In this document: in pieces, positions 34,406-38,416 of the stretch
Numbering within the stretch: position 1 is the stretch's first letter
Layout of the letters: every line of letters begins with the position of its first letter
Origin: Devosia nitrariae
Lineage (GTDB): Bacteria > Pseudomonadota > Alphaproteobacteria > Rhizobiales > Devosiaceae
DNA: 64,000 nt
Direction of reading: 5' to 3'
NCBI RefSeq assembly: GCF_030160115.1
Contig: NZ_BSNS01000022.1
Coordinates: 310,001-374,000 of the forward strand
Position numbers and translations under genes: made by a program
Notes under the pieces: generated by a model
Seen by the model: only the letters and a program-made list of their open reading frames with translations
Told to the model about the DNA's origin: nothing
The model's database searches: none

Positions 34406-35125
34406 CTAACGGCTCAGGAGCAACCGCCGTTCCTCCTCTGGCGACATGGGCGGGCCCGCGCCGATGCTGTCGAGGAAGGCATCGAGGGCCGCCAGCGAGG
34501 AGGCGGGCGCATAGCCGTCATCGGCCGGCGGCGCGTCGATGGCGATGGCAACCCGCCAGCTGTCCTCGCTGCGGCAAGCGACAGCGACGGTGGTGACCTC
34601 GCGATCGAGTTCGAACTCGCGGCAGAGGTTTTGGGCGGCGTCGGTGAAGGTTGCGATCGGCTGCAGGGTCGCGGCGCCGAGCTCTGCCTCGGCGCCCGAC
34701 GGCACCGTCTCCAACTGGGCAACCAATGAGGGGGCCAGCGGTTCGCCGGCGGCGATGGAAAAGTCTTCGCCGGTGCGGGCGAAAAAATACCCGGCGGGTG
34801 CGGCGAGCACCACGGCGACCGAGGCGGCAATGGTGACCGGCTGCCAGGCGGGGCGAGAGTGCAGCCGCCGGAACGGGACGACCTTCACCGTCTCTGCCGC
34901 GGCAATCGTCGCTTCGACGCGGCGGCGCAGGCGATCGGGCACCGGGCGGTCGGCGAGCGGCCCATAGACGGCGCGCGCGGCCTCGCCGCCGGCGGCCAGG
35001 AGCTCCAGGCGTCGGGCCAGATCCGGGTCGGCCTCGATGGCGGCGGCAATGTCGGAGAAGCGTGGCTCCTCGATTGCGCCGTCGGCAAAGGCCATCAGTT
35101 CTTCATCGTCGAATGATCTGGCCAT
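34406..35125 (-). CDS. Anti-sigma factor, membrane-anchored
   Basis: 239 residues. A short N-terminal cytoplasmic domain (FDDEELMAFADGAIEEPRFSDIAAAIEADPDLARRLE) of the anti-ECF type, one transmembrane helix (about 98-114, VTIAASVAVVLAAPAGYFF) and a periplasmic C-terminal part. The H-x3-C-x2-C zinc motif of ZAS proteins is absent. Its start is six bases after the sigma gene stop, so the two are cotranscribed. It should hold the sigma factor at the membrane until an envelope signal arrives. Confidence 0.85.
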   Translation of the reverse strand: MARSFDDEELMAFADGAIEEPRFSDIAAAIEADPDLARRLELLAAGGEAARAVYGPLADRPVPDRLRRRVEATIAAAETVKVVPFRRLHSRPAWQPVTIAASVAVVLAAPAGYFFARTGEDFSIAAGEPLAPSLVAQLETVPSGAEAELGAATLQPIATFTDAAQNLCREFELDREVTTVAVACRSEDSWRVAIAIDAPPADDGYAPASSLAALDAFLDSIGAGPPMSPEEERRLLLSR

Positions 35126-35131
35126 CCGTTC

Positions 35132-35635
35132 TCACAATACCTTTCCGGTTTCGGCGCCGATATCCTCGGCCACCCGCTTGCGGGCGCGCGCCAGCCGGCT
35201 CATCACCGTGCCGATCGGCAGGTCGAGCATCTCGGCCGCATCGCGATAACTGAGCCCCTCGACGCAGACGAGGAGCAGCACCTCGCGCTGTTCCTCCGGC
35301 AAGCGATCGATGGCTTCGGCCGCCCGGCGCAGCAGCATCCGCCGCTCCGGCACCGCCTCGCCCTCGACGGCCACAAGGTCGTCGCGTACAGTAACGTCGA
35401 GCTCTTCGCCGCGCGTACGCAATCGCCGCAGCCGATCGTACCAGAGGTTGCGCACGATCCTGAACATCCAGGCATCGAAGCGCATCTCGTCGTCGAGCGC
35501 CGCCGAGGCGAGTGCCCGCTCGCAGGCACCCTGTACCAACTCGTCGGCAACGTCGGACACCCGGCTCAGCGACAGGGCGTAGCGCCGCAGCCGCGGCAGC
35601 GCTTCGATCAGCAATGGTCCAATGGCGGTCGTCAT
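35132..35635 (-). CDS. ECF RNA polymerase sigma factor
   Basis: 167 residues. Region 2 contains VADELVQGACERAL and FDAWMFRIVRNLWYDRLR; region 4 contains LPEEQREVLLLVCVEGLSYRDAAEMLDLPIGTVMSRLARARK. It is the first gene of a two-gene operon with its anti-sigma factor. The same GGAAT-N16-CGTC motif stands before this operon, the divergent subtilase, and two further genes, strong evidence that these are its targets. Confidence 0.92.
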   Translation of the reverse strand: MTTAIGPLLIEALPRLRRYALSLSRVSDVADELVQGACERALASAALDDEMRFDAWMFRIVRNLWYDRLRRLRTRGEELDVTVRDDLVAVEGEAVPERRMLLRRAAEAIDRLPEEQREVLLLVCVEGLSYRDAAEMLDLPIGTVMSRLARARKRVAEDIGAETGKVL

Positions 35636-35662: not shown

Positions 35663-35687
35663 GACGCCGCACGGCGCCTCTTATTCC
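35663..35687 (-). promoter_or_regulatory. ECF promoter P1 of the sigma/anti-sigma operon
   Basis: On the minus strand GGAAT (35687-35683), exactly 16 bases, CGTC (35666-35663), continuing CATCG. The sigma start is 28 bases beyond. Autoregulation is the usual mode for ECF loci. Confidence 0.75.
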
Positions 35688-35713
35688 CCGCCAGCATAAA
35701 TTTTGTCACGAAG

Positions 35714-35738
35714 GGAATGAATGTATCAATGCTGCGTC
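35714..35738 (+). promoter_or_regulatory. ECF promoter P2 of the subtilase gene
   Basis: GGAAT (35714-35718), exactly 16 bases, CGTC (35735-35738), continuing ATCG just as in P1. It points to the subtilase start 41 bases away. Confidence 0.75.
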
Positions 35739-35778
35739 ATCGGACGAACCCGATCAACCGCTTTGGAAAGGAGTGGCC

Positions 35779-37101
35779 GTGGCTAAGTTCGACCCATTGC
35801 GCCTCACCGTGCTCGCCTGCCTGATCTCCGCCCTGCCGCTGACCGGGCTCTTTTCCGTCGACGAGGCCGGCGTGCCCCCGCACGCGGCCTTCGCCGACGA
35901 TGATGATGACGACGATGACGATGATGACGACGACGATGACTTTGGTGATGATGACGACGACGACAATGGCGGCTGGGACGACAGCTTGAGCAGACCCGTC
36001 CTTTCTGCCCCGGCCCCAACTGTGCGCGCGCCGCCACCACCACCCGCGGTCGAGGCCGCCAACGAAGTGGTGGTGCTCCATCTCGACGCCACAATCCGAG
36101 CCGAGCTTGAGCGGCTCGGCTACAATGCGCTGCGCAGCGAGGCAGAGGCGACCCTGCTGAGGGTGCCGCAAGGCATGAGCGTCGAGGCCGCAGCCGAAGC
36201 CGTGGCGGCGCTCTCGCCGGGACTGATCGCCGCGCCCAACAGCTACTACCGCAACCAGGCCGCCGACTGTGACGCAGCCATCTGCAAAAACTGGACGCAG
36301 GTTGCCTATCAGGTGCCCTCCGACGGGACCTGCGGCTTTGCGCCGGTGATCGGCATCGTCGACGCCGGTATCAATCTCGATCAGGAGATGCTGGCGGACG
36401 CCGACATAAGGCTCGAGCGGATCGGCGACGCTGACGCAGCCCCTGCCGAGCTCAAGCACGGTACCGCGGTGGTGGCGATGTTCGCCGGCGCTGCCGACAG
36501 CCGGGTGCCCGGCATGGTGCCGGGCGCGCGCCTGCATGTCGCCGATCCCTTCACCGGCAGCGGCGGCGACGACCGCGCTGATGCCTATGGCCTTTACCTC
36601 GCCATCACCTCGCTGCTTTCGGCCGAGGTGGAGGTGATCAATCTAAGCCTTGCCGGCCCCGCCAATGCGGTGGTCGAGGAGGCCGTCGCCACGGCTGTCG
36701 AGGCCGATGTGCCGCTCGTTGCAGCGGTCGGTAATGCCGGTCCGCGAGCCGAGCCGCTTTATCCGGCAGCCTACGACTCGGTCGTTGCCGTCACCGCCGT
36801 CGACGGCAACGGCAATGCCTACCGCCGCGCCGTCCAGGGCCTGCATGTCGACCTTGCGGCGCCCGGGGTCGACATCCCGACCGCCGCCTCCATCAGGGGC
36901 ATACGGCCGCAGACCGGCACGTCGTTCGCAGCGCCGTTCGTGACGGTCGCACTGGCGGCGGCACGGGCACGGGCGCCGGAAGCGAGCGTTGCCGAGCTCC
37001 TCGATGCCGTGGCAGGCGCCAGCCTCGATCTCGGCGAGCCCGGGCGCGACGACGTCTTCGGCCATGGTCTGGTGCAGATCGGCAGCCCCTGCAAAGAGTG
37101 A
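35779..37101 (+). CDS. Subtilisin-like (S8) serine protease with poly-Asp segment
   Basis: 440 residues. The N-terminus is a hydrophobic signal (about 8-25), then a run of 15 Asp, FG and 6 more Asp, a Pro-rich linker, a propeptide-like domain and the S8 catalytic domain: Asp196 in GIVDAGIN (DAG in place of the usual DTG/DSG), His228 in KHGTAV, oxyanion Asn320 in GNAG, Ser383 in GTSFAAP. So the triad is complete. GTG at 35779 has AAGGAG five bases upstream. It is secreted or periplasmic and transcribed from the ECF promoter P2. The Asp run could bind calcium or cationic polymers. Confidence 0.88.
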   Translation: MAKFDPLRLTVLACLISALPLTGLFSVDEAGVPPHAAFADDDDDDDDDDDDDDDFGDDDDDDNGGWDDSLSRPVLSAPAPTVRAPPPPPAVEAANEVVVLHLDATIRAELERLGYNALRSEAEATLLRVPQGMSVEAAAEAVAALSPGLIAAPNSYYRNQAADCDAAICKNWTQVAYQVPSDGTCGFAPVIGIVDAGINLDQEMLADADIRLERIGDADAAPAELKHGTAVVAMFAGAADSRVPGMVPGARLHVADPFTGSGGDDRADAYGLYLAITSLLSAEVEVINLSLAGPANAVVEEAVATAVEADVPLVAAVGNAGPRAEPLYPAAYDSVVAVTAVDGNGNAYRRAVQGLHVDLAAPGVDIPTAASIRGIRPQTGTSFAAPFVTVALAAARARAPEASVAELLDAVAGASLDLGEPGRDDVFGHGLVQIGSPCKE

Positions 37102-37153
37102 GGGCGCATCCTGCGGAGGGACACGCCCTCACCACGCCCGTCGCAGCGAGAGG

Positions 37154-37858
37154 CTAACGTTGCGCGCGGGCGAACTTGCGGTACCAGCCGGTGGCAGCGA
37201 GCGTGTTGCGGTGGACCCGTTGCCGCTCCATGGCCTCGCCGGCATGTTCGGCCCGTACCGAAAGCTCGAGTTCGGTGCTTTGCCGGCGGAAGGGGATGAC
37301 CTGCACCAGCGGCGTTCCCTTGGCGAGCTCGTAGAGACCATCCGGCGCGGTGGCAAAGAATGGGAAGTGCACCGGCGCGGTATAGGTGTCGGTATCGACG
37401 ACGCCGGCGACCGGCTCGAACACCGGCTCTTTGCGGTTGAGCGGCGCAACGAAGAGGCAGCTCCAGCCGGGCGGGGTGCGGATCGACCAGTAGTTGTGGA
37501 ACTTGCACGGTGGCCGTGGCGCGCTCGGGTGGCCAGCGACCTGGTGCTCGCCGTGGTTGGAGACCATGGCCTTGTCGAAATCCCAGCCGGCGGTGACAGT
37601 CTGGCCGTTGTCACGGATCTCGAGTCGGACGGTTGCCGCGAGCGGCAGGATGAAACCGGTGGTCATCGCATCGATGAACGGCATGCAGCGCTTGACGGTC
37701 AGTCCCGTATCGCCGGTGCCGTATTTGGATTTGTCGATCGCCGGGAGCTTGCGGAACCAGTCCGGCAGGTGCGTCTTGGCGGCGACCGGCGGAGCGATCA
37801 CACCCTCGTCCTCCGGGGTGCACAGGAACTCTATCGTGCGGTTAGGGTTCATGAACAT
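37154..37858 (-). CDS. DUF6065-like protein of unknown function
   Basis: 234 residues, start MFMNPNRTIEFLC (37858; 37852 also possible). Recognisable blocks are LPDWFRKLPA, TVKRCMPFIDAMTTGFILPL, NYWSIRTPPGWSCLFVAPLNR and GVVDTDTYTAPVHFPFF, which I associate with DUF6065, a family also found in phage genomes. No signal or membrane segment. Its promoter matches the ECF motif (P3), so it is a predicted member of the sigma regulon. Function unknown. Confidence 0.7.
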   Translation of the reverse strand: MFMNPNRTIEFLCTPEDEGVIAPPVAAKTHLPDWFRKLPAIDKSKYGTGDTGLTVKRCMPFIDAMTTGFILPLAATVRLEIRDNGQTVTAGWDFDKAMVSNHGEHQVAGHPSAPRPPCKFHNYWSIRTPPGWSCLFVAPLNRKEPVFEPVAGVVDTDTYTAPVHFPFFATAPDGLYELAKGTPLVQVIPFRRQSTELELSVRAEHAGEAMERQRVHRNTLAATGWYRKFARAQR

Positions 37859-37895
37859 CGGACGGACCTCACATGTTATCGGCATTGCCGCGTGA

Positions 37896-37920
37896 GACGG
37901 CCGGCAGGCGGATCTATTCC
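37896..37920 (-). promoter_or_regulatory. ECF promoter P3 of the DUF6065-like gene
   Basis: On the minus strand GGAAT (37920-37916), exactly 16 bases, CGTC (37899-37896). The gene start is 38 bases beyond. The bases after GGAAT (AGAT) equal those of P4. Confidence 0.72.
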
Positions 37921-37943
37921 ATTCGCAGCGTGAAAAAATTTCG

Positions 37944-37968
37944 GGAATAGATGGGAGGCAGGCTCGTC
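37944..37968 (+). promoter_or_regulatory. ECF promoter P4 of the Ser/Asn-repeat gene
   Basis: GGAAT (37944-37948), exactly 16 bases, CGTC (37965-37968), 50 bases before the gene start. P3 and P4 are back to back, as are P1 and P2. Confidence 0.72.
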
Positions 37969-38017
37969 CTTGACCCTGCGAGGCACATTCGCCCGCGCCA
38001 GTCGAAAGGACGTTCAC

Positions 38018-38416
38018 ATGGCCAAATCGATAACCATTTCAACGCTCGCGGTCGCCACGATCGTGTCCGTCGCGGCCCCGGCCCAGGCCGCGATCTCCGA
38101 AGCCCCGATGACCGCACCAAGGGTCGTGGATGCCGAGCGTGTCCAGGTCGCCGATGACGGCTATCGCCGTTATCCCAAGCGCAATTGGTGGTGGGAGAGC
38201 AATTCGAACTCGAACTCGAACTCCAATTCGAATTCTAACTCGAACTCCAATTCGAGCTCGAACTCTTCGTCCAATTCGAACTCAAATTCCAGTTCGAACT
38301 CGTCATCCAATTCAAGCTCGAATTCTTCGTCGAACTCCAGTTCCAACAGCTCGTCCAACTCGAGCTCGAACTCGAGTTCCAATTCTTCCTCGAACTCGTC
38401 CGACGACGACGATTGA
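38018..38416 (+). CDS. Secreted Ser/Asn-repeat protein
   Basis: 132 residues. Signal peptide MAKSITISTLAVATIVSVAAPAQA (cleavage near residue 24), a short mature head ending YPKRNWWWE, then about 65 residues made only of Ser and Asn ((SN)n passing into (SSSN)n), and a final DDDD. GAAAGGA precedes the ATG. Low-complexity Ser/Asn chains are flexible linkers or surface spacers; here there is no further domain. The gene is a predicted target of the ECF sigma factor. No homologue is known to me. Confidence 0.75.
   Translation: MAKSITISTLAVATIVSVAAPAQAAISEAPMTAPRVVDAERVQVADDGYRRYPKRNWWWESNSNSNSNSNSNSNSNSNSSSNSSSNSNSNSSSNSSSNSSSNSSSNSSSNSSSNSSSNSSSNSSSNSSDDDD
38199..38400 (+). repeat. Coding tandem repeat (Ser-Asn codons)
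   Basis: Degenerate six- and twelve-base units built from TCG/TCC/AGC/AGT and AAC/AAT codons. The unit changes from SN to SSSN at about 38252. Codon choice varies between units, showing selection on the protein rather than recent slippage alone. Confidence 0.8.

Follow-up and report, generated by a model that had tools for sequence, protein, structure and literature searches.

A probable Devosia form of the RpoE6-type ECF26 regulon, with a Ser/Asn-repeat and DUF6065-like gene pair

Within 64,000 nucleotides (nt) of Devosia nitrariae DNA (contig NZ_BSNS01000022.1, positions 310,001 to 374,000; here 'the window' refers to this whole 64-kb stretch), a sigma factor gene of the extracytoplasmic function (ECF) type and its neighbors stand behind four copies of one bipartite promoter sequence. 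We put the probability at roughly 0.8 that this module is a Devosia form of the RpoE6-type ECF26 regulon, including a cassette of two genes that encode a serine/asparagine (Ser/Asn)-repeat protein and a DUF6065-like protein. An exact search of both strands for GGAAT-N16-CGTC found exactly four sites in the window (P1-P4), arranged as two back-to-back pairs, where a sequence-only reading of the same DNA had placed them. Each is followed by a correctly directed start codon 27-49 nt from the end of CGTC, and the bases that had been described as shared within the pairs are indeed there, CGTCATCG in both P1 and P2 and GGAATAGAT in both P3 and P4. The promoters and genes are as follows, with protein lengths in amino acids (aa).

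34406-35125, minus strand: anti-sigma factor, 239 aa; a hydropathy peak near residues 97-115 predicts a single membrane segment.
35132-35635, minus strand: ECF sigma factor, 167 aa, RpoE6/ECF26-like, with PF04542 (region 2) and PF08281 (region 4).
35663-35687, minus strand: promoter P1, GGAAT-N16-CGTC, 5′ of the sigma gene; 27 nt from the end of CGTC to the ATG at 35635.
35714-35738, plus strand: promoter P2, GGAAT-N16-CGTC, 5′ of the subtilase gene; 34 nt to the GTG at 35773 or 40 nt to the GTG at 35779.
35779-37101, plus strand: subtilase (S8), PF00082 with E 8e-27; its start is signal-peptide-like (by eye), and it contains a polyaspartate (poly-Asp) stretch.
37154-37858, minus strand: DUF6065-like protein, 234 aa, PF19541 with 35.1 bits against a gathering cut-off of 26.6, with a predicted dUTPase-like fold.
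37896-37920, minus strand: promoter P3, GGAAT-N16-CGTC, 5′ of the DUF6065-like gene; 37 nt to the ATG at 37858.
37944-37968, plus strand: promoter P4, GGAAT-N16-CGTC, 5′ of the Ser/Asn-repeat gene; 49 nt to the ATG at 38018.
38018-38416, plus strand: Ser/Asn-repeat protein, 132 aa, with a signal-peptide-like start (by eye), an [N-S-(S/N)-S]n run and a DDDD end.

The S. meliloti (Sinorhizobium meliloti) RpoE6 locus on pSymA is a partly published counterpart (PMC6180224, cited here and below for the part of its text that is available). Identity to the window is 57% for the sigma factor, 38% for the anti-sigma factor, 41% for the subtilase and 68% for the DUF6065-like protein, and the Ser/Asn and DUF6065-like genes occur there in the same order as in the window. 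GGAATA-N16-CGTT is found on pSymA 5′ of the protease, Ser/Asn and DUF6065-like genes. The promoters of SMa0142 (protease), ecfR6 and SMa0148 have been published with RpoE6-dependent expression, the log fold changes upon RpoE6 overexpression being 4.7, 3.6 and 6.5, respectively, and start sites have been published for the protease and DUF6065-like orthologues (PMC6180224). The pSymA sequence in front of these three genes is letter for letter that printed in the same paper. The published regulon includes SMa0143/0144, the protease SMa0142 and two neighboring 'hypothetical' genes, SMa0146 and SMa0148 (PMC6180224); by its position and its own GGAATA-N16-CGTT, SMa0146 should be the Ser/Asn gene. 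The core module is thus not new, because the window sigma factor is so similar to RpoE6, whose orthologous protease and DUF6065-like promoters are in print, and the earlier description of the module as undescribed was too strong.

Other features agree with membership in ECF26, to which RpoE6 has been assigned with a group consensus of GGAATA/GT (PMC6180224), and we infer the same group for the window sigma factor from its 57% identity to RpoE6. The -35 element is GGAATA at three of the four window sites and GGAATG at P2, and the -10 element is CGTC, containing GT, at all four. The sigma factor has regions 2 and 4 only, both over cut-off, and an anti-sigma factor with one membrane segment is encoded downstream of it. 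This anti-sigma factor is 39% identical to that of a congener (genome G029) and has the same position as that protein and EcfR6; it matched anti-sigma models of NCBIfam weakly, far under their cut-offs, and in the Pfam scan of the module proteins neither it nor the Ser/Asn protein had any match. Divergent sigma/serine-protease pairs are widely conserved in ECF26 (PMC6180224), and the window has one. Its protease, for which the GTG at 35779 is the preferred start for better Shine-Dalgarno spacing (by eye) and the GTG at 35773 a possible one, has an acidic stretch near the start and retains the S8 catalytic and oxyanion residues, Asp195, His227, Asn319 and Ser382, which are invariant in 78/78, 79/79, 80/80 and 80/80 aligned relatives, respectively.

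The two systems also differ. In Devosia the ECF-type self-promoter lies before the sigma gene; that of S. meliloti precedes the anti-sigma gene, inside the final part of the sigma gene, and rpoE6 itself has an RpoD/RpoH-like promoter there (PMC6180224). In addition, the -10 element is CGTC in Devosia versus CGTT in the S. meliloti RpoE6 targets. RpoE1 and RpoE4 of S. meliloti, which belong to ECF26 and respond to sulfite, are alike in having GGAATA-type promoters and an anti-sigma factor with a membrane segment, but they have other targets (SorT sulfite oxidation), as far as the available parts of the reports go (PMC6180224, PMC3511301).

Promoter conservation is the second line of evidence. 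In G029 the four genes occur in the same order and all four promoters are GGAAT-N16-CGTC, with spacers that are otherwise different. Of nine Devosia loci, one of them the window's, all nine retain P1 (one with CGTA, one with N17) and P3 (one with N17), eight have P4 by a strict search, and four have P2 in its exact form. The expectation that the motif would be conserved before the four orthologues therefore holds for P1, P3 and P4 and only partly for P2, which is the weakest of the four promoters in Devosia, yet has a published S. meliloti counterpart.

Beyond the genus, the sigma factor was compared across 93 loci, namely the window, pSymA and 91 relatives. Among the relatives are the best 80 loci of a profile scan of named genomes, so that counts describe a sample rather than a census. 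The subtilase gene is divergent from the sigma gene within 800 nt in 60 of the 93 loci, divergent at a greater distance in 11 and otherwise arranged in 10, and it is absent from the stretch examined in 12. In the 60 close divergent pairs, GGAAT-N15-17-CGT points toward the protease in 49, all genera taken together. A search of 92 loci for the DUF6065-like gene located it in 32, on 31 distinct contigs (loci L073 and L076 share a contig and count twice among the 32 and once among the 31), and the motif is upstream in 32/32, with GGAAT 41-78 nt from the projected start. This promoter ends in CGTC in all Devosia loci and in CGTT in other genera. As a control, 1011 open reading frames (ORFs) were called mechanically in these loci; the motif precedes 107 of them by no more than 110 nt, and 12 permuted motifs gave counts of 0 to 11. 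Together with the published S. meliloti orthologues, this conservation supports well the earlier proposal of a sigma/anti-sigma regulon that would control itself, a secreted subtilase, the DUF6065-like protein and the exported Ser/Asn protein.

Judged by their distribution, the Ser/Asn and DUF6065-like genes behave as a two-gene cassette. Ser/Asn genes were detected in relatives by composition, or by motif plus translation. Both genes are present in 31 of the 91 related loci and neither, by the threshold used, in 60, and every DUF6065-like gene there is accompanied by an exported Ser/Asn gene (31/31). Among the 93 sigma proteins placed on a tree, 33 come from loci with both genes and 60 from loci with neither; the best tree implies 11 changes of this trait, and all four pairs on supported branches are concordant, with both genes changing together (p 0.125). 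When 397 genomes were drawn evenly from the order as a second sample, 26 had a DUF6065-like match, and these comprise the window's own, nine close (63-77% identity) and 16 distant (34-40%) ones; this draw shares three genomes with the first (G102, G409 and G422, those of loci L098, L150 and L112) and is not independent of it. A Ser/Asn gene lies within 1.5 kb of the DUF6065-like gene in the window, in eight of the nine close cases and in none of the 16 distant ones (four of these 16 stretches being cut short). In all nine genomes with a close orthologue, a sigma factor related to the window's is encoded (E 1e-30 or better). The pair is truly apart from it in G102 and G327, because the sigma gene there is on another contig, tens of kb from any contig end, and the pair retains its motifs; G409 and G422 might still have the genes linked across a contig break. 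The DUF6065-like protein is the most conserved member in most loci, with 60-82% identity to the window's in 25 other sequences. The subtilase, by comparison, is present in 48 loci that show neither gene of the pair.

The Ser/Asn run itself looks old and kept at the protein level, since 15 of its 16 twelve-base units are distinct, their mean identity is 0.67 and six Ser codons are used; recent DNA slippage as its source is rejected on the same grounds. In 41 open frames with such runs, a set that includes the window gene (L157) and the cut run of L144, Asn recurs at every fourth residue over 5 to 24 units. Three genomes from a single genus (L158, L159 and L160) encode the run fused to a peptidoglycan-binding domain, PG_binding_1 (PF01471, E 6e-13 or better), and this fusion points to the wall or periplasm. 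The Ser/Asn protein is most likely a hydrated, extended chain that resides in the periplasm or the cell wall.

For the DUF6065-like protein, PF19541 is matched by 26/26 aligned relatives at E ≤ 0.001, and a dUTPase-like fold is predicted. Two models of moderate confidence (mean predicted local distance difference test scores, pLDDT, of 70 and 75) had dUTPases alone among the 50 rows listed for each by VIA-align. The best Z scores were 10.4 (root-mean-square deviation 2.9, 116 residues aligned) and 10.0 (2.9, 125 aligned), with Z of about 9-10 over about 110-130 residues in most listed rows, where a typical best Z without a clear match is 7 to 8; the two models are not independent because their alignments overlap. 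At the sequence level, hhalign to dUTPases was weak (probability 14%, E 0.0019; sigma control 0.2%, 0.29), Pfam scans gave no dUTPase (PF00692) match at E 0.001, and a search of PDB sequences with the DUF6065-like profile gave nothing below E 0.2. Proteins of the dUTPase/dCTP deaminase fold would be alike in the predicted fold, but the DUF6065-like chain is longer and the profile match weak, and a shared fold would not give a function. The DUF6065-like model is matched more closely by uncharacterised phage proteins of the Caudovirales in BFVD, with E down to 1e-13, than by the dUTPases listed.

Searches around the pair gave few leads. The neighbors of full-length PF19541 proteins in two genomes offered no functional lead (polyphosphate kinase, Ppx, class II tRNA synthetase and 3′-5′ exonuclease in one; MFS, DUF924, Tad-like and UvrD-like in the other). 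No literature was found on 'DUF6065' or on such Ser/Asn repeats, nor on SMa0146/SMa0148 beyond PMC6180224, all of them weak absences because subscription papers were mostly not covered. A likeness was considered to bufferins, ribosomally synthesised and post-translationally modified peptides that are MNIO-modified and Sec-exported, which also pair a small exported protein with a cytoplasmic partner and have sigma genes counted in their clusters (PMC12452194, in its available part). Bufferins have a cysteine-bearing precursor beside an MNIO enzyme, so the likeness is analogy only, and a bufferin-like system was dropped as there is no MNIO/DUF692 protein among the five module proteins (Pfam) and the Ser/Asn protein lacks Cys.

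The DUF6065-like protein may act on the Ser/Asn protein or may simply accompany it. It is doubtful, in our estimate, that the DUF6065-like protein would be a dedicated cytoplasmic partner (a modifying enzyme, or a chaperone with a fold like that of dUTPases) serving exported [N-S-(S/N)-S]n proteins, which would make the module an ECF-controlled system for a modified or specially delivered cell-wall polypeptide across the Rhizobiales and Rhodobacterales, unrecognised so far. A stronger candidate, which we still rate somewhat below even odds, is that the genes are co-regulated but functionally separate, the DUF6065-like protein being a divergent dUTPase-fold nucleotide binder or hydrolase and the Ser/Asn and poly-Asp chains passive envelope fillers that travel as a cassette. 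The structural matches described above would suit such a protein, and hhalign weakly aligns the dUTPase G-[IV]-[IV]-D-x-D and G..Q segments with it; no signal peptide is seen on the DUF6065-like protein (by eye), and therefore the two products should end in different compartments. However, shared regulation would not call for the constant company of the two genes together with their adjacency in two genomes far from the sigma gene. The subtilase is often found without them, the hhalign probability is low, and the dUTPase motif 2 arginine and glycine-rich motif 5 are not evident in the DUF6065-like sequence.

Several observations weigh against the preferred reading of an RpoE6-type regulon with its cassette, or against parts of it. 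P2 is altered or not found in five of the nine Devosia loci: it is AGAAT in L068 and L069, more changed in L070, replaced by GGAAT..CGTA farther out in L076, and none was found in L071. The Ser/Asn protein is dispensable, because a match at E ≤ 1e-6 occurs in eight of 75 Devosia genomes, the window's included, and in none of the other 67. As for the count of the pair, 23 of the 60 'neither' loci are cut by a contig end, one of these 23 (L144) has a Ser/Asn run at the cut end below the threshold, and counting was by locus rather than by genome, the genomes of L098 and L112 carrying the pair elsewhere. With only four supported pairs, the sigma-tree test cannot reach significance. At L163 (G409) the DUF6065-like gene and its motif occur without a Ser/Asn neighbor; where that gene would be, an efflux-adaptor-like ORF (by reading) stands behind the motif. 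A protein-modifying enzyme is not what one would expect from a dUTPase-like fold. This genome also encodes an apparent EcfG-like general stress sigma factor with a NepR-like neighbor. In S. meliloti, 27 of 40 RpoE6 targets are common to RpoE2 (PMC6180224).

The last two points would fit a reading in which EcfG, the general stress sigma factor, does most of the work at these sites and the local sigma factor adds little, as would the similar motifs of RpoE6 and RpoE2 (PMC6180224); we judge it very improbable. All four window sites have GGAAT with CGTC, not GGAAC. The EcfG promoter consensus is GGAAC-N16/17-CGTT, and the DUF6065-like promoter ends in CGTC throughout Devosia and takes CGTT only in other genera. 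In the table of the S. meliloti study, the values given above for SMa0142 and SMa0148 with RpoE6 have no RpoE2 value printed beside them, and SMa0142 has 0.7 with RpoE4 (PMC6180224, available part).

Four chance matches of a short motif in a GC-rich (guanine/cytosine-rich) window is a reading with almost nothing left to it, rejected as a whole explanation by the conservation of P1, P3 and P4 in relatives, the permuted-motif control and the published start sites for orthologous promoters, P2's S. meliloti orthologue being among the published ones (PMC6180224), although the in-window count alone is not strong. Dinucleotide-shuffled windows had a mean of 0.75 sites and reached four in 1 of 100. 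Among the 79 GGAAT of the window, CGTC follows at N16 four times and is the commonest 4-mer there, but four other 4-mers occur three times each, so the count by itself is modest evidence. The whole genome (5.54 Mb, 35 contigs) has 63 sites, with no further cluster of at least three within 3 kb. Of the 59 beyond the window, 52 are inside some open frame of at least 150 aa, a test that is too loose because P3 and P4 are covered by such a frame as well (37154-38017). When frames were instead tested by GC content at codon positions, coding-like frames contained 30 of the 59 outside sites and none of the four window sites. Of the remaining 29, seven have the start codon of a coding-like frame within 75 nt. 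This test is imperfect, since the Ser/Asn gene fails the coding signature; a reversed-pattern genome control (14 matches) contains TAA and was not used as a measure. Judged from sequence, the case for P1-P4 is carried by their placement in two divergent intergenic pairs and their conservation, and not by their number.

If the module is an RpoE6-type regulon, its working could be as follows, with cell locations and biochemical roles inferred. The membrane anti-sigma factor would hold the sigma factor until a signal releases it, as expected from the family. Free sigma factor would then bind GGAAT-N16-CGTC and transcribe four local units together. First, its own operon with the anti-sigma gene would give positive feedback plus a matching antagonist. 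The other three would yield the subtilase for secretion, the Ser/Asn-repeat protein for export and the DUF6065-like protein, which would stay in the cytoplasm. Beyond the locus, the regulon would take in one unlinked gene or more, one of which encodes an exported poly-Asp protein. As to what such a response is for, the sequence-only reading had suggested that it may be an envelope response; the data of the S. meliloti study left the role of RpoE6 undefined, and the S. meliloti ECF factors had no significant role in survival of envelope-disrupting agents (PMC6180224, within the text available).

The unlinked gene (L184, at C1:88591-88943 of genome G000) stands 43 nt behind GGAATA-N16-CGTC, and its product is a poly-Asp protein of 95 aa whose start resembles a signal peptide. 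Devosia geojensis (G066), in which the pair is present too, has an orthologue (L259) with GGAATA-N16-CGTC retained at 46 nt upstream, and the gene occurs in two of 75 Devosia genomes. More poly-Asp proteins with signal-peptide-like starts stand behind the motif in Agrobacterium/Rhizobium (L094 and L102). Six other genomic sites outside coding-like frames have a coding-like frame starting within 75 nt (L188, L192, L193, L195, L205 and L206) and may include further targets in this genome; those at L195 and L206 resemble, by eye, the starts of a regulator and of a small transporter. Other genes recur behind the motif in relatives, namely a glycerate kinase (15 loci), a CitMHS-type transporter (13 loci) and a weak DUF1611 match (8 loci), at L078, L080, L090, L093-L095, L097, L099, L101, L102, L107, L108, L110, L117, L135 and others. 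At L035:12040-13810, back-to-back ECF-type sites precede two DUF1236 proteins with signal-peptide-like starts, one of them with an SH3 domain, and a related sigma gene is near.

Self-promoter wiring varies within the family. In the 93 loci, GGAAT-N15-17-CGT is found before the sigma gene only in 40, before the anti-sigma gene only in 38, before both in four and before neither in 11. Loci of close relatives do not count as independent, but both single states, of which the window exemplifies the first and S. meliloti RpoE6 the second, occur in several parts of the sigma tree, as if lineages had chosen either positive or negative feedback. With the self-promoter on the sigma gene in some members and on the anti-sigma gene in others, the two signs of feedback can be compared within a single regulator family, as in a natural experiment.

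New here are the identification of the Ser/Asn and DUF6065-like genes as a pair, their distribution among relatives, their occurrence far from the sigma gene, and the unlinked poly-Asp target. Two 'hypothetical' neighbors of RpoE6 are thereby named as a recurring alphaproteobacterial pair, which turns an orphan list into a testable unit. If the two proteins were truly partners, a predicted dUTPase-like fold would be linked to an exported Ser/Asn repeat, a role not expected of such folds.

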